NCBI GenBank assembly: GCA_021735425.1
Contig: JAIPGZ010000009.1
Location: 1 to 44,318 of the forward strand
Direction: 5' to 3'
Origin: Candidatus Altimarinota bacterium
GTDB taxonomy: Bacteria > Patescibacteriota > Gracilibacteria > JAHISY01
DNA: 44,318 nt
The notes under the pieces were generated by a model that saw only the letters and a list, made by a program, of their open reading frames with translations, had not been told where the DNA came from and ran no database searches. This document shows, one piece after another, positions 12,324 through 35,356 of the stretch. Position 1 is the stretch's first letter; each line of letters starts with the position of its first letter. Both the position numbers and the translations under genes were made by a program.

Positions 12324-13880
12324 CTATTCCTCCTCTGCCTTGTTAATCACTTCACGAAAGCGAATGTATTCTGTGATACGTAGTCCAGTGAATTTACCAA
12401 GCATGATATCAGCCAAAAGAAATAGGAAAATTATTTCGGAATGCGCCAGCATCGTGGTGCGGAGATAGCTCCATTCGCCGACGACGAGATAGCAGACCAA
12501 GGAAACGAAAAGTAATTCGGCGAACATTCGAATGGCGCTGCTCGCGCCTTTTTCACTTTGAATCGAAACGAATTTTTCCGCGAGAGTCGACATAATCAAC
12601 ATTGGGAAAATGGATGCCGCGATCAGATCTGCAACGCGGAAATATTGTCCAAAAGGGGCCAACCAAGTCAGCAAAACAATGGAAGCAAAAATCGCAAAAG
12701 AAACGAATGTCAAAACAATCGCTAAGCGGGGAGTGTAGGCCAGCCGGTAACGACGCAGAATTCGCCGAATGAGAATCGAAGCAAAAACGACAACAAATAA
12801 AATCGCGATACCGAGCTTCAGCCCAATCGCAAGGAACGAAAGAGTGAGAACCGAAGGAGTGTAAACCCCGAAAGTCGTAATCCCAACGACCTGTTTGAGG
12901 AAAGCCACAAGCGTCGCGATTACCGGCAACATCAAGACAAGCAAGATAACAGACGGTGGAATTCCTTCGGAGATAAGGTAATTGACGAGAAAAGAAAGCG
13001 GGGACTTAAAACTGAATTTTTCGAGGCCGGAGTCAACAACGCGAAGCGGAATCGCTTGAGTCTCGAGTGAGGCTTTTAGCTCGGTTGAATTAGCTGAAAG
13101 AATAACATCCCGCAAAGCCTCCACTCGAGTGATAATAATTTCACGAGGCTGCAGGATGGCAAAATTGCCGCGCGCGATACGCACCAACGAATCAAGACTG
13201 CCTTCGGTAATCACAACAACTTCTTTGTCGGAAAAATCGAGGGGAGGATTCAGTTTTTGTGCGAAACCAGACAAGCCATTTAGCCCATCTCCACCGCGCG
13301 CCCAAAGAATAATCGAATCTGTGTCACGCAGCGTTGGAAACTTTTCCTGTAAGGCAGCGGTAATTGCATTTTCTTCGGCGAAAAATCCCGCCTGATTGCC
13401 GACCCCCCAAGCAGTGTCGAGAAAAATATTTCTCTCTTTGGCCGCCTCCGCTAAAAGTGCAATTTTGATTTCGCGAGAAAAAGAGTCAGTCAGTAAAAGA
13501 ATGTTCTTTTCAAAAACAAAAAGCGGGAAGCTAGCAGTGTCGGTCTCACTGCCAACCTGCATTTTGAGTTGAATTTCGTAGACCCCAGCGGTGCGAAAAA
13601 TATGAGACTGTTCCGCCCCCGTGCCGGTCGAGCCGTCTCCGAAATTCCAGCTGAAAACTGCCGGCCGCTCGAGAAAAGGGTTGAGCGAATGTTCGGCGGA
13701 AAAATCAATCTCAACGCCAACCGCGACAGCTTCGGCAGCGGAAATCACGGCCTGAAGTTGACCCGCCGCTGGTTTAAATTCAGCAGAATCTTCAGTTTCG
13801 ATGGCAAAGACCGGAAGACAAAAACTAAAAAGAAGAACTCCAAGTATTAGCCGAGAAGTTAGTTTTTTTAATTTAATCAA
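12324..13880 (-). CDS. PKD-domain protein with 7TM (inactive-transglutaminase-associated) domain
   Basis: 518 aa. A signal peptide (LILGVLLFSFCLPVFA) is followed by a PKD fold (residues about 60-120, with AVFSWNFGDGSTGTG). A Rossmann-like region of about 170 residues comes next, then seven membrane helices. The helix bundle has VGITTFGVYTPSVLTLSFL and ends ADIMLGKFTGLRITEYIRF, the hallmarks of the 7TM domain found next to inactive transglutaminase domains. The middle part would be outside the cell. Start TTG at 13880, inferred from the signal peptide. It lies 35 bases after ilvE on the same strand. Function unknown; probably surface sensing or polymer handling. Confidence 0.75.
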   Translation of the reverse strand: MIKLKKLTSRLILGVLLFSFCLPVFAIETEDSAEFKPAAGQLQAVISAAEAVAVGVEIDFSAEHSLNPFLERPAVFSWNFGDGSTGTGAEQSHIFRTAGVYEIQLKMQVGSETDTASFPLFVFEKNILLLTDSFSREIKIALLAEAAKERNIFLDTAWGVGNQAGFFAEENAITAALQEKFPTLRDTDSIILWARGGDGLNGLSGFAQKLNPPLDFSDKEVVVITEGSLDSLVRIARGNFAILQPREIIITRVEALRDVILSANSTELKASLETQAIPLRVVDSGLEKFSFKSPLSFLVNYLISEGIPPSVILLVLMLPVIATLVAFLKQVVGITTFGVYTPSVLTLSFLAIGLKLGIAILFVVVFASILIRRILRRYRLAYTPRLAIVLTFVSFAIFASIVLLTWLAPFGQYFRVADLIAASIFPMLIMSTLAEKFVSIQSEKGASSAIRMFAELLFVSLVCYLVVGEWSYLRTTMLAHSEIIFLFLLADIMLGKFTGLRITEYIRFREVINKAEEE

Positions 13881-13915: not shown

Positions 13916-14845
13916 CTAGCTACCAACTACTGTCAGCCACTTCTGATATTTGGGAGCTTCACCTGCAACCGCAGCCAAGAAGATTTCGCGAAGCTTCGTG
14001 GTTAATTCACCCGCTTTGCCATTTTTAATTTTGCGGGAGTCGAGTGAGCCGATTGGCTGAACCTCAGCCGCTGTACCGGTGAAGAAAGCTTCGTCGGCAG
14101 AATACAGGTCACGCAACTTGTAATTACCCTCCCGCGTCTTTACTCCTAAATCGGCAGCGATTTGGATAATCGCGTCGCGAGTAATCCCAGCAAGAATCGA
14201 ACCAAGCCTGGGAGTTTGGAGAACTCCTTTTTTGAGGAAGAAAATATTCTCACCAGGTCCTTCTGCGACGAAACCACGGTAATCTAGGAACAGAGCTTCG
14301 TCGAATTTGGCTTTTTTGACTTCGAGTGAGGCGAGAATTGAGTTGATGTAATGTCCGCAAACTTTGGCGTCAGCGACGACCGAATCAGGATGGAGGCGAA
14401 TTAATTTGGAGGTTTTGACTCGGATCGGTTTCCCTCCGAGATAGCTTCCCCAAGGCCAACAAGCGATAGCCAGTGAGACTGTCGCGCCAGTCGGATTCAA
14501 CCCCATTTTGCCGTAATCGAAAAAGGCGAGCGGACGAATGTATCCCGCCGGAATTTTGTTAACCCTAACTGTTTTGCAAATCGCCTCGGCAACCTGGGTG
14601 TGATTATAAGGAATCTTCATCTGCAGCGCCTTCGCGGAATAGAAGAGTCGATCGATGTGTTCTTTTAAACGAAAAATCGCTGGACCTTTTTTGGTTTCGT
14701 AAAAACGAATTCCCTCGAAAACACCCGAACCATAATGGAGAGCGTGCGAGAGAACATGAACATTCGCGTTTTCCCAATTTGTCAGTTTGCCGTTCAGCCA
14801 AATCTTTTTAGTGATTTGAAAGGAGGCTTTGGGTAATTTATTCAT
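13916..14845 (-). CDS. ilvE: Branched-chain amino acid aminotransferase
   Basis: 309 aa, the normal length of class IV aminotransferases. It transfers the amino group between glutamate and Leu/Ile/Val and uses PLP. Visible blocks: HYGSGVFEGIRFYET near the N-terminus, RPLAFFDYGKMGL, DAKVCGHYINSILAS with the PLP-binding Lys, EGPGENIFFLKKG, SILAGITRDAIIQIA and AFFTGTAAEVQPI. ATG at 14845 is preceded by TAAAAT (14852-14857, minus) with 6 bases between, so it has its own leaderless promoter in the 25-base gap after thrC. Adjacency to thrC fits isoleucine synthesis. Confidence 0.92.
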   Translation of the reverse strand: MNKLPKASFQITKKIWLNGKLTNWENANVHVLSHALHYGSGVFEGIRFYETKKGPAIFRLKEHIDRLFYSAKALQMKIPYNHTQVAEAICKTVRVNKIPAGYIRPLAFFDYGKMGLNPTGATVSLAIACWPWGSYLGGKPIRVKTSKLIRLHPDSVVADAKVCGHYINSILASLEVKKAKFDEALFLDYRGFVAEGPGENIFFLKKGVLQTPRLGSILAGITRDAIIQIAADLGVKTREGNYKLRDLYSADEAFFTGTAAEVQPIGSLDSRKIKNGKAGELTTKLREIFLAAVAGEAPKYQKWLTVVGS

Positions 14846-14870: not shown

Positions 14871-16715
14871 TTATTTTCCAATCTTCTGACCTTTCCAATA
14901 AAGTATGTTGTAGCCTTTTTCAAACGCCGCAATCGAAGCCGCGATGATGTCAGGAGAATTGGCGATGGCCACGACGGAATTTTTTTGTGAATCTTCAAGT
15001 TTCATTTTGACCTCTGTCGTCGCATCCACTCCGTCTGCGTCGACGAAGACTTCAAAGTCCACCAACTCTTCTTTTAGTTGAGATTTATTTTTCAGAGCAG
15101 AACGAATAGCAGAAATCACCGCATCAACCGGACCTACTCCTTTCGCCGAGGCGGTTAATTTTTTGCCAAGAAATTCGACTGTAATTTTCGCACGCGGCTG
15201 CCGTTTTTTTTGAATTTTTAATTCATAATCCTGTACTCGCATCACCCGCGTCTCATAAGTCAGGTCGCTCAAAGCCTCCTCGACTAAGCTTTGCAAATCC
15301 GCCTTGGTTAGAGGCTTCCCTTTCGCGATGAAGGTTTCAATCGCGAGTAAAACTTCCTGCCGGTGTGATTCTTTTAAGTTGGCGGAAAATTCCTTTTTAA
15401 TTGTCTGGGTTAATTTTGCCAAAGTCGGTTTTTGGCGAAAAAGAATTTTCTTCCGCTCGGCAAAACCAGCGCTGCGAATCGCGTAAAGTTTGTATTTGAT
15501 GAAGCGATCAATCTCGGAAATCTCGGGCTCGACGGCCGGTGGGGTGGGGTGCGCATCTAGCGCTGACTTGGGGTCCTTGAGCCCAACCCCAGTGGCGACA
15601 AGAACAATGGTGTCCGAAGCTTTGAGAAATTTCTTCTTTTGTAAAATCTTGATGGCGACGAGCGGAAGCGCTGCCGATGGCTCGACGAAAATTGCCTCCT
15701 GCGCACCCAAATCTTTTTGGGCATGGATGACTTCGGCATCGGGGACAGTAATCCCAATTCCTTTTGAGTCGCGAATTGCTTCCAAGGCTTTGAGGTCGTC
15801 AAGCGGCTTGCCAATCCCGACAGCAGAACAAATCGTGTCGGGGTGCGCGACGAAGGGTGCTTTTTTAAATTTCTTGGTGAAAGCTGCAACGACGGTAGAA
15901 CAACCCGCTGGCTGTACTCCTACAATTTTGGGAATTTTTTTGATGAAGCCGAGTTTGTGAAATTCGAGGAAGCCGGCGTAAATCGCAGCAAGATTCGTCC
16001 CACAGCCAACCGGGACAATCACGACATCGGGAACCTTCCAGTCAAGATTTTCGATAATTTCGAAAGCGCAAGTTTTTTGTCCTTCGCCGCGAAAAACATA
16101 ATCACCCGCCAAATAAAAATTATATTTTGCCGCCATTTGCTCGGCGAGCACACAACAGTCAGCGTAAGTCCCACGAATCGAAAGCACCCGCGCGCCGTAA
16201 CTCATCGCCTGCGCCAATTTCCCCAACGGCGTGTTTTCTGGGATGAGAACGTAACAAGGTAATCCAGCCAGTGCCGCGTAAGCGGAAACCGAAGCCGCCA
16301 TATTACCAGTCGAGGCACAAACCACCGCCTTGGCGCCGAGTTCGAGGGCTTTCGAAATTTCAACTACTGAACCTCGGTCTTTGAAAACTCCGGTCGGATT
16401 CATCGCCTCGTTTTTGAGGAAAAGATTAGGCTGGTGTAAAATTTTCCCTATTTTGGAAATTTTAATCAAAGGAGTGTCACCCTCCTGCAAACTGACTAAT
16501 TTTGTCTTGGCGGCCAGCGGATAAAAGGCGCGATATTTGGAAGAGGTAGTCGGAGCCAGCTTATGGAATTCTTTTTGGGCTCGTTTTTTTAATTTGAAGA
16601 AATCCCATTCCACCCGCAAAGCCTCACCACAAAAATGACAGCGTGCCACCGCGTCACTTTCTTGAATCGTCTTTCCGCAACCAACACAACGAAGTCGGTA
16701 AAAGTCTTTTTGCAA
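14871..16715 (-). CDS. thrC: Threonine synthase fused to a C-terminal LeuA-type allosteric domain
   Basis: 614 aa, much longer than the usual 350-450. Residues 1-40 are a zinc ribbon (Cys 10, 13, 26, 29) as in many ThrC proteins. Residues 60-390 are the PLP fold II enzyme (NPTGVFKDRGS with Lys112; CASTGNMAASVSAYAALAG; PVGCGTNLAAIYAG), which converts O-phosphohomoserine to threonine. Residues about 400-490 are helical. Residues about 495-604 match the LeuA dimer/regulatory fold: KGVGPVDAVISAIRSAL (525-541), a middle EVFVDADGVDATTEVKM, and SPDIIAASIAAFEKGYN (587-603). In isopropylmalate and citramalate synthases that fold binds Leu or Ile. I infer end-product control of ThrC. Start TTG 16715, 15 bases after the FtsB-like stop. 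Confidence 0.9.
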   Translation of the reverse strand: MQKDFYRLRCVGCGKTIQESDAVARCHFCGEALRVEWDFFKLKKRAQKEFHKLAPTTSSKYRAFYPLAAKTKLVSLQEGDTPLIKISKIGKILHQPNLFLKNEAMNPTGVFKDRGSVVEISKALELGAKAVVCASTGNMAASVSAYAALAGLPCYVLIPENTPLGKLAQAMSYGARVLSIRGTYADCCVLAEQMAAKYNFYLAGDYVFRGEGQKTCAFEIIENLDWKVPDVVIVPVGCGTNLAAIYAGFLEFHKLGFIKKIPKIVGVQPAGCSTVVAAFTKKFKKAPFVAHPDTICSAVGIGKPLDDLKALEAIRDSKGIGITVPDAEVIHAQKDLGAQEAIFVEPSAALPLVAIKILQKKKFLKASDTIVLVATGVGLKDPKSALDAHPTPPAVEPEISEIDRFIKYKLYAIRSAGFAERKKILFRQKPTLAKLTQTIKKEFSANLKESHRQEVLLAIETFIAKGKPLTKADLQSLVEEALSDLTYETRVMRVQDYELKIQKKRQPRAKITVEFLGKKLTASAKGVGPVDAVISAIRSALKNKSQLKEELVDFEVFVDADGVDATTEVKMKLEDSQKNSVVAIANSPDIIAASIAAFEKGYNILYWKGQKIGK

Positions 16716-24335: not shown

Positions 24336-24967
24336 TTTTCAGCAAGAACAATTAAATTACGACCGCGGAGAAAATTAGACTTCATGGAGTGCCGCGCGTA
24401 AAAAATTTTAATGTTTTTGAAGCCAGCTGTCGCGAGGAGTTTTTTTAATTCATTTTTGCGAAAGACATAAACTTGCCGAGAACCTTTTCCTGCAAACGGA
24501 ATTTTAAGATTGCGCGAGAACTTTTGGCTAAAGTGAAGCTGCCAAAATCGCGGCTGCCATAAATTCCAAACTGTCAGAAAAATCCGACCACCAGAACGCA
24601 AATTTCGAAGAAGATTTTGGGCAGCCTTTTTTTGTTCGGCGGGACCGTGGAGATGGTGCAAAACAGCGATACAAAAAATCACGTCGGCACAGTTCGGTTT
24701 ATGAAGGTCGAGCAAATTTTGATTTTCAAACTTACGGTCAGGAAAATTTTGACGAGCGAGCACGATTAAATTTTTGGACGAATCGACGCCCAAATAGTCG
24801 CCGGGGAAATTATTTTCCGCGAGCCAAAAATTAAGCCGACCATTACCACATCCAGCATCGAGAATTTTTTGGGCCGACAAAAAACTTTTCGCGAACTCAA
24901 ATTCTCCCCACGAGCTTCGGCGAGCGCGATCCCAGTCTTCCGCGTTAAAATCGTAAAAATTTTTCAT
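24332..24967 (-). CDS. Trm9-like class I SAM-dependent methyltransferase
   Basis: 211 aa from ATG 24967. The N-terminus (MKNFYDFNAEDWDRARRSSWGEF) resembles the Y-x-x-x-A-x-x-(Y/F/W)-x-x-x-R-x-x-x-W start of the Trm9/ABH8 tRNA methyltransferases. Motif I is ILDAGCGNGRL (35-45), with an acidic residue in LGVDSS, HHLHGPAEQ, and LRSGGRIFLTVWNLWQ, which corresponds to the LRPGG-(x)-VWALEQ block of Trm9. Trm9 methylates cm5U34 made by Elongator, and the divergent neighbour here is elp3, which makes this reading likely. A longer open frame to 25039 overlaps elp3 and is less plausible. The start codon overlaps that of elp3. Confidence 0.75.
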   Translation of the reverse strand: MKNFYDFNAEDWDRARRSSWGEFEFAKSFLSAQKILDAGCGNGRLNFWLAENNFPGDYLGVDSSKNLIVLARQNFPDRKFENQNLLDLHKPNCADVIFCIAVLHHLHGPAEQKKAAQNLLRNLRSGGRIFLTVWNLWQPRFWQLHFSQKFSRNLKIPFAGKGSRQVYVFRKNELKKLLATAGFKNIKIFYARHSMKSNFLRGRNLIVLAEK

Positions 24968-26477
24968 GCTAGCTATTGAAATGATTTTAGAAGCGATTGC
25001 CCAAAAAGTCGCGACTGAAAAAAAATTACGAGAAATCAAGGCCCAGTTCGCCGGAAATTCCGGCAGCTTGATCGCAAATTCGAAATTGGTCGAGGCTTAC
25101 CTCAAGCTCTTGAAGTCGAAAAAAATCCGACAACAGCCTGATTTGGAAAAAATTCTGAAAAAGTCGCGCATCCGAACCCTGTCGGGGGTCAGCCCCGTCG
25201 CGGTCTTGACAAAACCATCCGGTTGCCCTGGGCAATGTGTTTTTTGTCCAACGGAGCGAGGAATGCCCAAAAGTTATTTGTCGAACGAGCCAGCCGTGAT
25301 GCGCGCCATTCGCGCGAAATTCGACCCCTGGCGACAAATCAAAGATCGACTGAGGGCGCTGGAAAGCTGTGGACATGCAACAGAAAAAATCGAACTAATC
25401 GTGATGGGCGGAACTTTTTCAGCGCATCCAAAAAATTATCAAAACTGGTTTTTGCGACGCTGCTTCTTCGCACTGAATTCACGAAAAGCGAAATCTGGTT
25501 CGCTAGAAGACTTGAAAACGGCAAACGAAAAATCCAAACACCGCGTCGTCGGTTTGACTCTCGAAACTCGACCGGATTTTATCGACGCATCCGAGGTGCA
25601 GAATTTTTTACGACTGGGTGCGACCCGCGTCGAAATTGGAGTGCAAAATTTGGACGATAAAATTTTAGCAATTTCAAAACGCGGTCACGGCGTGGCAGAA
25701 TCAATCGAAGCAATCAGGTTATTAAAAAATGCCGGGCTAAAGGTCGGGGTACACCTGATGCCAAACCTGCCTGGCGCAACACCGAAATCAGATTTCAAAA
25801 TGTTTGAAAAGCTTTTTGGGGACGAAAATTTCAAACCCGACCAAATTAAAATTTATCCGACCGTTTTGGTGGCCGGCGCAGAATTGGAAAAACTGTGGCG
25901 CACAAAAAAATGGCAACCTTATTCTGACAAAACTCTGACCGAACTTTTAGCAAAAATTAAATCCATCGTCCCACCCTGGGTGCGCCTGACGCGAATCATC
26001 CGTGACATCCCAGCGGAGTCAATCTTGGCAGGAAGCAAGCTGACCAACTTGCGACAAATTTTGCAGCAAAAAAAAGTGTTCTGCCATTGCATTCGTTGTC
26101 GCGAAATTCGAGGAACGGAATTCGACGCAAAAAAGACCAAATTGATTCGACGAAACTATCAAGCAAGTGGTGGCAAAGAAATTCTTCTGAGCTCCGAGGT
26201 CGATGGAAAATTAATCTCACTCCTCCGCCTCCGTCTCGACAAAAAAGCAACCGTCCGCGAGCTCCATACTTTTGGCGAAGAGATCAGAATTTCGAAATCG
26301 GGGAATTCCCAGCATCGCGGTTTTGGCAAAAAATTAATTTTGGCAGCAGAAAAAACTGCACGCAAAAACAGCTTCGAGAAATTGCGGATCATTTCGGGCG
26401 TCGGCGTGCGAGAATATTATCGTAAACTCGGATATAAACTTGATGCTGAAAAAATTTATATGGAGAAAAAACTATGA
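24966..26477 (+). CDS. elp3: Elp3-type tRNA uridine-34 carboxymethylation enzyme (radical SAM + GNAT)
   Basis: 503 aa, close to archaeal and bacterial Elp3. After a helical N-terminus comes RTLSGVSPVAVLTKPSGCPGQCVFCPTE with the radical-SAM Cys set at 87, 91 and 94. The barrel includes GLTLETRPDFI and EIGVQNLDDKIL. A Cys cluster follows (FCHCIRCREI), then a C-terminal GNAT domain (SQHRGFGKKLILAAEK acetyl-CoA loop and GVGVREYYRKLGY). Elp3 places a carboxymethyl group on U34 of tRNA using SAM and acetyl-CoA. ATG 24966 gives the listed start; ATG 24981 is an alternative. TAAAAT lies upstream at about 24944. It overlaps nadC by 4 bases (ATGA). Confidence 0.93.
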   Translation: MLAIEMILEAIAQKVATEKKLREIKAQFAGNSGSLIANSKLVEAYLKLLKSKKIRQQPDLEKILKKSRIRTLSGVSPVAVLTKPSGCPGQCVFCPTERGMPKSYLSNEPAVMRAIRAKFDPWRQIKDRLRALESCGHATEKIELIVMGGTFSAHPKNYQNWFLRRCFFALNSRKAKSGSLEDLKTANEKSKHRVVGLTLETRPDFIDASEVQNFLRLGATRVEIGVQNLDDKILAISKRGHGVAESIEAIRLLKNAGLKVGVHLMPNLPGATPKSDFKMFEKLFGDENFKPDQIKIYPTVLVAGAELEKLWRTKKWQPYSDKTLTELLAKIKSIVPPWVRLTRIIRDIPAESILAGSKLTNLRQILQQKKVFCHCIRCREIRGTEFDAKKTKLIRRNYQASGGKEILLSSEVDGKLISLLRLRLDKKATVRELHTFGEEIRISKSGNSQHRGFGKKLILAAEKTARKNSFEKLRIISGVGVREYYRKLGYKLDAEKIYMEKKL

Positions 26478-27334
26478 AACTTTTCCAATCCCAAATCTCG
26501 CGTCTCTCAGTGACAAACCACGACTACCGCAAATTCGTGATGGACTTTTTGGAACTATTACTAGCTCAAGACGTCGGCAAGGACGACATCACAACGGCAC
26601 TCCTCGCCAAGCCGAAAAAAATCATTCAAGCCGAAATCCGCGCTAAAGAAAAAGGTATCCTCGCGGGAGTCGAGGAGACTAAGTTTTTCTTGAAACGAAA
26701 AGGTGTGCGAATTTTAAAAAATAAAAAGGACGGAGCCACGGTGAAAAAAAATGATGTCGTATTCGTCCTTCAGGCTCCAGCCAAAAAAATCCTCACACTC
26801 GAAAGAGTCGTTCTCAACCTCATCCAACGCATGAGTGGCATCGCGACCGCGACAGCGAAATTGGCAAAAAAAATTGGTAAAAATAAATTTAGTGCGACGC
26901 GCAAAACGCCACTCGGACTTCTCGATTCGCGGGCAGTCGTAGTCGGTGGCGGCCTGCCTCACCGGCTGAATCTAGCCGACATGATTCTCGTAAAAGAAAA
27001 CCATCTGGCAGTTGACCCAAACTGTTGGAAAAAAATTCACACAAAAGATTTTTTCGAAATCGAGGCAGATTCGCCAAAATTGGCACTCGCGATTGCGGAG
27101 CACTTTTCTAAATCGCGAAATTTAATTTTGTTGCTCGACAATTTTTCAGTCGCGCAATTCCGAGAAACCGCGACCGCAATTCGTAAAATAAATCCCAAAA
27201 TTATTTTGGAAGCCAGCGGTGGAATCGACGAAAAAACCGCCCCGAAGTTTTTAGCAGCCGGCGCAGATTTCGTCTCACTCGGAAAATTGACCAACACTGT
27301 GGGAGTGGTGGACTTTAGTTTGAGTGTTGTCTAG
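26474..27334 (+). CDS. nadC: Quinolinate phosphoribosyltransferase (carboxylating)
   Basis: 286 aa, normal length. It joins quinolinate and PRPP to give nicotinate mononucleotide in de novo NAD synthesis. Visible: DVGKDDITTALL (family GDLT-type start), LERVVLNLIQRMSGIAT, ATRKTPLGLLDSRAVVVGGGLPHRLNLADMILVKENHL (in parts), LLLDNFS, EASGGID and DFVSLGKLTN. The closely related ModD and nicotinate phosphoribosyltransferases are less likely because nadB follows. ATGA overlap with elp3 implies coupling. Confidence 0.9.
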   Translation: MKLFQSQISRLSVTNHDYRKFVMDFLELLLAQDVGKDDITTALLAKPKKIIQAEIRAKEKGILAGVEETKFFLKRKGVRILKNKKDGATVKKNDVVFVLQAPAKKILTLERVVLNLIQRMSGIATATAKLAKKIGKNKFSATRKTPLGLLDSRAVVVGGGLPHRLNLADMILVKENHLAVDPNCWKKIHTKDFFEIEADSPKLALAIAEHFSKSRNLILLLDNFSVAQFRETATAIRKINPKIILEASGGIDEKTAPKFLAAGADFVSLGKLTNTVGVVDFSLSVV

Positions 27335-27750: not shown

Positions 27751-29175
27751 TTGCAAAATCCTAACTTCCTCATCGTCGGCTCTGGCATCGCGGGACTCAC
27801 CGCCGCCCTTTTTTGCGCCAAGCAGGGAAAAGTGTTAATCGTCACAAAATCCACACTACTTGAGTCTTCCTCGCGTTACGCCCAAGCCGGCGTCGCCGCC
27901 GTACGAAATTTCAAATGGGATTCGTTCGAAGAACACGTCGCCGACACACTAGAAGCTGGCTGCCACGACAACGATAAACGTACTGTCAAGTTCCTCGTCG
28001 AAAACGCCCCCAAAATGGTCGACTGGCTCGAACACAAAATCGGCGTGAAATTCCAAAAAGAACCGACTCGCGAGGCGGCACATTCCCATTCACGCGTCTG
28101 GAATACGAAAGATTCGACAGGGGAGGCCATCGAAAAAGCACTGGCTAAAAAAGTCCGCGCTAATAAAAATATTAAAATCCTTACTCAGGCATCCTTGCTC
28201 GATTTAATCGTCGAAAAAAAAGTTTGCCGAGGTGCCTGGCTAAGGCTGAACGGGAATAATGAAATCTTCCCAGTTTTCGCCAACAAGATAGTCCTCGCCA
28301 CCGGTGGCTACGGACAACTCTTCGCGAAATCGACAAATCCGGAAGTCTCAGTCGGCGACGGTATCGCTGCCGCTGCTCGTGCCAGAGCCAAGCTAAAAGA
28401 TTTGGAATTCATCCAATTTCACCCGACCGCACTCGTCGGTCGGCAAACCCGACTGACTTTATTGAGCGAGAGCTTGCGCGGCGAAGGAGCGGTCTTGCGC
28501 AATGCACGTGGCGAACGCTTCATGCCCACCTACAATAAAGCAGGAGAGCTGGCACCCCGGGACATTGTTTCGCGCGCAATTTTCTCCGAGATGAAACAAG
28601 GGAAAGTTTTCCTCGACTTCACCCGCGCCAGCGAAAAGTTTTTGTCCGAACGCTTTCCGTTAGTTTGGCGAGAGGTCGGGAAAGCCGGATTTAATTTGGC
28701 GAAGGATTTAATTCCGATCTTTCCTGTAGCGCATTATTCCTGCGGAGGAGTGGTGACGAATTTGCGGGGCGAGACTTCAGTCAAAAATTTATTGGCTGTG
28801 GGTGAAGTCGCTCAAACAGGACTCCACGGAGCCAATCGCTTGGCGAGCAACTCACTCGCTGAGGCTCTAGTCTTCGGCAAAGCGGTAGCGGAAAAACTCA
28901 AGTCGTCGGAGGTTCAAACAGTCACGATCAAAGCTCCAAAATATTTTTTCGACACCAAAGATGACGTTGCTGTAAGAAAAATTGTTCAAAAAACGATGTG
29001 GGAGAGAGTGGGGATTGTGAGAAACACCAAAGATTTGCGCGAGGCACTAAACACTTTTGAAAAGCTGGAGCCTCGAAGTTTTGCCGCCCAGAACATTGTC
29101 CTAGTTGCGAGGCTAATCACGAAAGCTGCCCTAGCGAGAAAAAAGAGCTTGGGGACGCACTTTTTGGAAGACTGA
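27751..29175 (+). CDS. nadB: L-aspartate oxidase
   Basis: 474 aa FAD enzyme, somewhat shorter than E. coli NadB (540). It converts aspartate to iminoaspartate, the first step of de novo NAD synthesis. FAD-binding start FLIVGSGIAGLTAALFC (7-23). Active-site blocks of the succinate dehydrogenase/fumarate reductase family: SSRYAQAGVAAV, HSHSRVWNTKDSTGEAI, LEFIQFHPTAL, RGEGAVLRNARGERFM, ELAPRDIVSRAI, HYSCGGVVTNL and GLHGANRLASNSLAEALVFG. Start TTG 27751, with TAAAAT at 27720-27725 upstream. nadC is upstream on the same strand; nadA is not in the window. Ends in TGA. Confidence 0.95.
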   Translation: MQNPNFLIVGSGIAGLTAALFCAKQGKVLIVTKSTLLESSSRYAQAGVAAVRNFKWDSFEEHVADTLEAGCHDNDKRTVKFLVENAPKMVDWLEHKIGVKFQKEPTREAAHSHSRVWNTKDSTGEAIEKALAKKVRANKNIKILTQASLLDLIVEKKVCRGAWLRLNGNNEIFPVFANKIVLATGGYGQLFAKSTNPEVSVGDGIAAAARARAKLKDLEFIQFHPTALVGRQTRLTLLSESLRGEGAVLRNARGERFMPTYNKAGELAPRDIVSRAIFSEMKQGKVFLDFTRASEKFLSERFPLVWREVGKAGFNLAKDLIPIFPVAHYSCGGVVTNLRGETSVKNLLAVGEVAQTGLHGANRLASNSLAEALVFGKAVAEKLKSSEVQTVTIKAPKYFFDTKDDVAVRKIVQKTMWERVGIVRNTKDLREALNTFEKLEPRSFAAQNIVLVARLITKAALARKKSLGTHFLED

Positions 29176-33802: not shown

Positions 33803-35356
33803 ATGAAAAAGAAATTATATATATACGATACAACCTTGAGGGATGGTAACCAGATGGAGGGAGTGAATTTTTCTATAAATGAGAAATTAAAAATTACAAA
33901 AAAGTTAGATGAATTTGGAGTTGATTTTATCGAAGGTGGTTGGCCAGGAAGTAACCCAAAAGATGATGAGTATTTCAAAGAAATTAAAAAAATAAAATTA
34001 AAAAACGAAGTGGTGGCTTTTTCTTCGACTCATTTAATCGGAAAAACTCCAGCGACTGATTTTTTAATTCAAAAAGTTTTAGCGGCAAAGACAGGGTGGG
34101 TTTGTGTTTTTGGGAAAACTTGGGATTTTCATTCTCAGAAAATTCTCAAAATTCAAAACAAGGATGCTATTAAATTAATCCAAAACACAATTAAGTTTTT
34201 CACCACAAAAAGAAGAAAAATAATTTTTGATGCAGAACATTTTTTCGACGGGTTTAAATCAAATTCAAAATTTGCGCTGGAGTGTTTAAAAATTGCTGAG
34301 AAAAATGGTGCGGCGAACTTAACTTTATGCGACACGAATGGTGGGAGCTCAGAAAAAGAGATTCGAGAAATAATACGTGAAGTCAAACAAGAGATTAAAA
34401 CACCGCTTGGTATTCATACTCATAATGATTGTGGTTTAGCAGCTTCAAATTCTCTCGCGGCAGTCGAAGAAGGAGTCGAGTTGGTTCAGGGTTGCCTAAA
34501 TGGGTTAGGTGAGAGAAGTGGGAATGCGAACCTTGGGACAATTATTCCTAATCTTCAAATTAAACAGGGTTATAAAATTATTCCACCAGTGAGTCTTGAA
34601 AAAATTACTCAACTTTCAAACTATATTTTTGAGTTTGCGAATCTTCCGCCGCAAAAAAATCAGCCTTTTGTAGGCGCGAATGCTTTTACCCATAAGGGTG
34701 GAATTCACGCGTCAGCGGTTTTGAAAAATTCTAAAAGCTATGAGCATATCAGTCCGAAACTAGTCGGGAACGTTTCTCGAATCACAATTTCAGAACTGAG
34801 TGGGAAGTCGAATGTCGTCGAGGTCGCGAAGAAATTAGGATTCAAGCTCGATCCTCAATCTCAGCAAACTCGCAATATTCTCAAACAAATCAAACAAATG
34901 GAAAGTGAAGGTTTTTATTTCGAGACGGCTGAAGCTAGTTTTGCTTTATTAATTCTCCGCTCACAAAAAAACTACAAAGTGCCTTTTGAAGTCTTGGATT
35001 ATTTTGTAATTAATCTAAAAGATGGGGAGGCGAAAGCGACTGTTAAGCTAAAAGTTGGCACAGAAATTCGCGAGTATGCAGCGAGCGGGAATGGACCGGT
35101 CAACGCTCTAGATGTCGCGACGCGGCGAGCGGTGGGTAAATTCTTCCCACAAATCCAAAACGTTGAGTTGAAAGATTATAAAGTTCGGATACTCGACTCT
35201 GATGCAGCTACGGCGGCAAAGACTCGGGTTTTGGTTGAAAGTTCCAACGGTGTAGAAGGCTGGAACACAAGCGGTTGTTCGGAAAATATTATCAAAGCGA
35301 GCTGGCAAGCCTTGATTGATAGTTTAGAATTTGCGATTTGGCGGGCAGGGAAATAG
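33803..35356 (+). CDS. cimA: Citramalate synthase
   Basis: 517 aa. It condenses pyruvate and acetyl-CoA to citramalate, opening the threonine-independent route to isoleucine. Signature YDTTLRDGNQMEGVNFSINEKLKI and IEGGWPGSNPKD (43-54) mark the CimA rather than the isopropylmalate synthase branch. Metal His in GIHTHNDCGLAA (205 region), GLGERSGNANL (234-244), and C-terminal LeuA-type regulatory domain (about 385-515, SGNGPVNALD). The first half is markedly more AT-rich (Lys AAA, Leu TTA) than its neighbours, which may mean recent acquisition. The 203-bp gap before it is very AT-rich, with two TTTTCCACA repeats at 33698-33717 and a TTGGTT-17-TTTATT possible promoter. Confidence 0.9.
   Translation: MKKKLYIYDTTLRDGNQMEGVNFSINEKLKITKKLDEFGVDFIEGGWPGSNPKDDEYFKEIKKIKLKNEVVAFSSTHLIGKTPATDFLIQKVLAAKTGWVCVFGKTWDFHSQKILKIQNKDAIKLIQNTIKFFTTKRRKIIFDAEHFFDGFKSNSKFALECLKIAEKNGAANLTLCDTNGGSSEKEIREIIREVKQEIKTPLGIHTHNDCGLAASNSLAAVEEGVELVQGCLNGLGERSGNANLGTIIPNLQIKQGYKIIPPVSLEKITQLSNYIFEFANLPPQKNQPFVGANAFTHKGGIHASAVLKNSKSYEHISPKLVGNVSRITISELSGKSNVVEVAKKLGFKLDPQSQQTRNILKQIKQMESEGFYFETAEASFALLILRSQKNYKVPFEVLDYFVINLKDGEAKATVKLKVGTEIREYAASGNGPVNALDVATRRAVGKFFPQIQNVELKDYKVRILDSDAATAAKTRVLVESSNGVEGWNTSGCSENIIKASWQALIDSLEFAIWRAGK

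Follow-up and report, generated by a model that had tools for sequence, protein, structure and literature searches.

In the 44,318-nucleotide stretch of DNA analysed here (contig JAIPGZ010000009.1 of a Candidatus Altimarinota bacterium, hereafter the window), a single gene joins a threonine synthase (ThrC)-like PALP domain to a C-terminal regulatory domain of the type found in LeuA. The encoded protein is probably a threonine ammonia-lyase of ThrC ancestry that catalyses the IlvA reaction and is controlled by isoleucine through the LeuA-type domain. We infer the reaction, the effector and the direction of control, whereas the fusion, its conservation, the replaced active site residues, the second ThrC of the genome, the gene context and the composition of the pocket are read directly from the sequence. 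The open reading frame (ORF) begins with a TTG start codon, and the features referred to below are the following.

14871-16715, minus strand: fused gene for a proposed threonine ammonia-lyase of 614 aa, with a ThrC-like PALP domain followed by a LeuA-type regulatory domain at the C-terminus
16629-16688, minus strand: N-terminal zinc-ribbon-like motif CxxC...CxxC (C10, C13, C26, C29), from the alignment
15588-16496, minus strand: PALP catalytic domain, residues 74-376 (PF00291, E 3.5e-72)
within the PALP domain, minus strand: Schiff-base lysine K112 of the fused protein, aligned to K61 of TtThrS
16002-16301, minus strand: region with four replaced canonical ThrC residues (M139, G204, D205, C238), from the alignment
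15312-15542, minus strand: linker, residues 392-468 (NF002085 and NF002086 match residues 437-605 and 435-607)
14901-15311, minus strand: LeuA_dimer regulatory domain, residues 469-605 (PF08502, 77.2 bits, E 1.4e-21)
15015-15128, minus strand: putative ligand-pocket residues V530, D531, L551, F554, V558 and T567, from the alignment
13916-14845, minus strand: ilvE, branched-chain aminotransferase, 25 bp downstream of the fused gene (PRK06606, 374 bits, cut-off 279)
33803-35356, plus strand: cimA, citramalate synthase carrying a LeuA_dimer domain of its own, the other route to 2-oxobutanoate (TIGR00977, 651 bits, cut-off 450)

The fusion is real. A preliminary description of this DNA had recognized a regulatory domain of this kind from three motifs, all of which are present in the ORF, and a PF08502 profile search of the C-terminal part bears it out, with 77.2 bits against a curated cut-off of 24.9 bits. 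Because models of 2-isopropylmalate synthase align to the fused protein from residue 435-437 onward, the LeuA-like part seems to begin upstream of the Pfam LeuA_dimer domain and to have captured some of the LeuA helical linker as well. A Pfam search of the fused protein returned no ACT domain match, and no riboswitch or T-box was found in the window. At the N-terminus, the four cysteines of the zinc-ribbon-like motif are invariant across 14 aligned fused proteins, with the motif missing from the more distant member G624. An AlphaFold model built from an input alignment of two sequences gave a pLDDT of 39.

A survey of proteins combining PALP and LeuA_dimer domains, in which the profile search covered 353 genomes of the class and a thinned set of 380 genomes drawn from the phylum, found the fusion in 36 genomes of Patescibacteria representing 18 families, two of the genes being truncated by contig ends and one being in two pieces. 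Three of the 18 families lie elsewhere in the phylum. Three congeners (72-78% identity) and ten further relatives from other families (43-48% identity) carry the fusion at full length, which rules out an assembly artefact. The two halves of an apparently split gene in G288 lie at two contig ends and were counted as one broken gene, and LeuA_dimer ORFs of 586-621 aa that were considered as further fusions (G021, G030 and G227) proved to be HMGL-type synthases of the usual layout. A scan of genome contigs with the single protein matched one near relative and one remote PALP protein only, and no plasmid record covered 80% of the fused protein. In a tree in which the LeuA and CimA domains came mostly from the same genomes as the fusions, 31 C-terminal domains from fused proteins formed one clade (99/97) apart from both, as expected of one fusion event.

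The PALP domain falls within the threonine-synthase branch (E 3.5e-72). The NCBIfam thrC model TIGR00260 matches the fused protein at 228 bits against a cut-off of 167, the ThrC model PRK08197 reaches 293 bits against a cut-off of 303, and the IlvA model TIGR01127 reaches 101 bits against a cut-off of 379. The fused enzyme does not group with E. coli IlvA or TdcB in the tree; instead, the fused enzymes group with their unfused relatives (99/93), outside the clade of canonical ThrCs (99/95), a placement that we count against identity as a threonine synthase. The Schiff-base lysine, the K116 position and R209 (R160 of TtThrS) are all retained. However, M139, G204, D205 and C238 occupy the positions of T88, N154, S155 and N188 of TtThrS, four residues that are invariant in seven canonical ThrCs and that we take to hold the phosphate of the substrate. 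The replacements of T88 by M, N154 by G and S155 by D are found in all 33 fused proteins compared and in three unfused relatives, and at the N188 position most of those 33 carry C or V, one has S, one has F, and G022 and G031 retain N. With R160 and K116 in place, some phosphate binding may persist.

The genome from which the window derives carries a second, canonical ThrC (G000:C28; TIGR00260, 255 bits) that is identical to the ThrCs of T. thermophilus, A. aeolicus and M. tuberculosis at 16 of 16 active-site columns, as is a Lysinibacillus thrC that precedes thrB. A canonical second ThrC is also present in the genus. Homoserine dehydrogenase is encoded in the window's own genome, yet it is missing from 17 of the 36 fusion genomes, including 12 of the 23 with a completeness of 90% or more. 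A separate ThrC occurs in 15 of 19 fusion genomes with homoserine dehydrogenase versus two of 17 without it (Fisher p 6.6e-5, indicative only, since the genomes are related and some are incomplete), and so the separate ThrC tracks homoserine dehydrogenase and not the fusion. It is located near the hom gene in G029, G273, G252 and G325; in G038, only a 25-residue end of a separate ThrC adjoins hom. The other PALP proteins inspected in fusion genomes are CysK, TrpB, ThrC or small HK-motif types, and a motif check, which took in some but not all of the TrpB-length proteins, found no classic IlvA motifs among them. Two further kinds of PALP protein were observed in the genus. Small proteins with a GSHKFR / SSGNAA motif (L008 on G000:C11, G001:C71 and G004:C12:129457) are conserved there and fit no obvious known enzyme, and a third, very divergent ThrC-like protein of ~450 aa is encoded in two congeners (L206 on G001:C31, and G002:C50).

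As had been noted previously, ilvE adjoins the fused gene on the same strand, and the two are probably co-transcribed. This linkage recurs in G001, G003 and G004 and in families f18, f20, f32 and f76. Across the 35 fusion genomes with flanking sequence, in which gene identities were assigned by HMM and which are related and in some cases incomplete, 28 of 35 neighbourhoods contain ilvB/C/D/E/N, leuB, ridA or ileS within 6 kb of the fusion, on the same strand in 27 of the 28. The ilv genes account for 18 neighbourhoods and ileS for four, and ridA lies within 300 bp in 12. Examples of gene order include fusion-ilvE-ilvD-ilvC-ilvB in G029/G277, ilvE-ilvB-ilvN-fusion-ridA in G306/G307 and fusion-ridA-ileS in G019. 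None of these genes was detected in the flanks of G022, G037, G045, G052, G059 and G174, and G028 could not be scored. At the level of whole genomes, ridA is present in 36 of 36 and ilvD in 30 of 36, with ridA located away from the fusion in the window's genus (G000:C25). RidA deaminates the enamines produced by threonine/serine dehydratases (PMC9127364, PMC3416771). Among the LeuA_dimer genes typed, those assigned to CimA were confined to G059, G370 and the genus of the window; therefore, most fusion genomes need another source of 2-oxobutanoate.

Given the linkage to ilv genes, ridA and ileS, the lack of a classic IlvA among the proteins inspected and the rarity of CimA, the fused protein is read as a threonine ammonia-lyase. 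Its PLP domain would convert L-threonine to 2-aminocrotonate and then 2-oxobutanoate, with RidA aiding hydrolysis of the enamine, and 2-oxobutanoate would be carried on to isoleucine by IlvB/N, IlvC, IlvD and the adjacent IlvE. Isoleucine bound by the C-terminal LeuA-type domain would inhibit the catalytic domain, the LeuA-type domain thereby standing in for the ACT-like domain of IlvA. Deamination by a ThrC-type enzyme is chemically plausible, because the ThrC of Microcystis forms 2-oxobutanoate from threonine and that of T. thermophilus does so as a side reaction in vitro (PMC12172450).

The preliminary description took the fused protein for a threonine synthase and suggested that isoleucine or leucine controls it directly. 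Much of that view holds, in that the enzyme is of ThrC ancestry, the domain is of the LeuA type, and the effector is likely a branched-chain amino acid, probably isoleucine. The controlled step, on the other hand, is probably not threonine synthase and the name is probably wrong, because of the second ThrC, the four lost residues, the genomes without hom and the ilv/ridA/ileS context; the second ThrC, the altered active site and the gene context in other genomes had all escaped the earlier account. We consider it very unlikely that the protein is a true threonine synthase under isoleucine or leucine control: ThrC models are its best family matches (TIGR00260 above its cut-off and PRK08197 close to it, at 293 versus 303), and the protein retains the overall fold, R160 and the Schiff-base lysine, but a canonical ThrC is already available in that genome and genus, homoserine dehydrogenase is lacking from 17 of 36 fusion genomes, four residues invariant in ThrC are replaced and the neighbours are ilv, ridA and ileS genes.

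An enzyme of the Microcystis type, making threonine from O-phosphohomoserine as well as deaminating it, is unlikely too. Such an enzyme would have a precedent in Microcystis and in the side deaminase activity of the T. thermophilus and B. subtilis ThrCs (PMC12172450), and R160 and K116 are in place; nevertheless, the synthase activity would be left without a source of substrate in the genomes that lack hom, and those that possess hom mostly have a separate ThrC of their own. The least probable reading is a PLP lyase acting on another substrate, such as a deaminase for serine or for a broad set of hydroxy amino acids, or an enzyme for some other reaction linked to branched-chain amino acid synthesis. 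It would be compatible with the clearance of 2-aminoacrylate by RidA (PMC9127364) and with the catabolic-looking contexts of unfused relatives, whereas the ilv operons, the isoleucine-like pocket and the linkage to ileS point to the step from threonine to isoleucine.

Relatives that are truly unfused and have no sensor were found in family f33. In G311 and G312, whose genomes are without ilvD, the sensor-less gene adjoins ridA. The unfused enzyme of G627 has an active-site signature nearly the same as that of the fused family, and an aromatic amino acid lyase gene (L073, 74-2400, plus strand) overlaps it by 4 bp. The sensor thus appears to persist where an isoleucine pathway needs control, which parallels the relationship between TdcB and IlvA.

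The fused LeuA_dimer domain gives a weak match (E 0.018) to 3F6G, the domain with which Leptospira citramalate synthase binds isoleucine, whose pocket we take to consist of D431, L451, Y454, I458 and V468; this list fits the 3F6G chain if residue number equals chain index plus 389. The corresponding positions are D, L, Y/F, I/V and V in the fused family, compared with D, L, F, A and A/G in most LeuA proteins and D, L, Y, A and G in E. coli LeuA. Because the fused pocket resembles 3F6G and not LeuA, its composition favours isoleucine as the effector and disfavours leucine. Isoleucine is listed as a regulator of the Leptospira enzyme (PMC10464499). In the window's genus, T replaces V at the position of V468 and CimA coexists with the fusion, making us less sure of the effector there. 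The window does contain, as reported earlier, a cimA gene with its own LeuA_dimer domain, and the suggestion that the threonine and citramalate routes are joined still holds in an altered form, with CimA and the fused enzyme as two candidate entries to isoleucine, each with a LeuA-type domain.

In the bacterial threonine dehydratases described so far, the number of ACT-like regulatory subdomains ranges from zero to two (PMC3851459, PMC3901761), with two in biosynthetic IlvA of E. coli and one in that of B. subtilis. The fused enzyme resembles IlvA in its proposed reaction, in its neighbours ilvE, ilvD, ilvB and ilvC and in having an N-terminal PLP domain followed by a putative C-terminal isoleucine sensor, and in ilv neighbourhoods the fusion takes the same place as ilvA in the E. 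coli ilvGMEDA operon. Unlike IlvA, its catalytic domain is of the ThrC branch, its sensor is of the LeuA type and it has the N-terminal zinc-ribbon-like motif. It shares with ThrC of the T. thermophilus type the fold class, the Schiff-base lysine motif and the FKDRG and STGN loops, and is ~35-39% identical to annotated ThrCs, but differs in having T88, N154 and S155 replaced throughout and N188 almost throughout, in the fused sensor and in gene context. Microcystis ThrC is likewise a ThrC-type enzyme that forms 2-oxobutanoate from threonine, as we propose here, although threonine synthase is its main activity and the available part of the report (PMC12172450) mentions no LeuA-type domain. The regulatory domain is homologous to that of LeuA and CimA, probably including part of the helical linker, yet it is attached to a PLP enzyme and not to an HMGL-like TIM barrel, and it forms a separate clade; its pocket is like that of the Leptospira citramalate synthase and unlike that of LeuA. 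The unfused G311, G312 and G627 proteins are like catabolic TdcB in having no sensor, with no ilvD found for f33, but belong to a different PALP branch. A literature search on PF08502/LeuA_dimer, of partial coverage, did not turn up any threonine dehydratase described as having a LeuA-type sensor.

The best reading of these comparisons is that the fused enzyme works like IlvA but lies outside the IlvA sequence family. With somewhat less confidence, we lean toward viewing it as a third build of the allosteric threonine deaminase, independent of IlvA, in which the phosphate site was remodelled and a LeuA/CimA-type sensor was gained once, early in Patescibacteria, adapted to isoleucine and later dropped wherever the capacity to make isoleucine disappeared. 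If the threonine ammonia-lyase assignment is correct, a widespread Patescibacteria gene annotated as threonine synthase is an entry enzyme for isoleucine and metabolic models should be corrected, since many of these reduced genomes would be expected to derive isoleucine from scavenged threonine while making no threonine themselves. One metabolic control point would then have been rebuilt with both catalyst and sensor exchanged, and this natural chimera would make it possible to ask how signals pass from a LeuA-type domain to an unrelated enzyme fold.

Several other genes were noted alongside. The isoleucyl-tRNA synthetase that adjoins ridA in G019 (L118, 11599-15468, plus strand) is 1289 aa long, with a histidine-phosphatase-type match at ~532-724 inserted between its two halves. 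Directly downstream of ilvE in the window (12324-13880, minus strand) is a gene in which a PKD domain is fused to 7TM_transglut, and a similar gene is found beside ilvE in G001 and G004. Elsewhere in the window, a radical SAM protein with a Radical_SAM_C domain typical of Elp3-like proteins (24966-26477, plus strand) directly precedes a NadC-like quinolinate phosphoribosyltransferase (26474-27334, plus strand), which is followed by a FAD-binding, L-aspartate oxidase-like protein (27751-29175, plus strand), a pair that might allow NAD to be made de novo in this Patescibacteria genome of 1 Mb.
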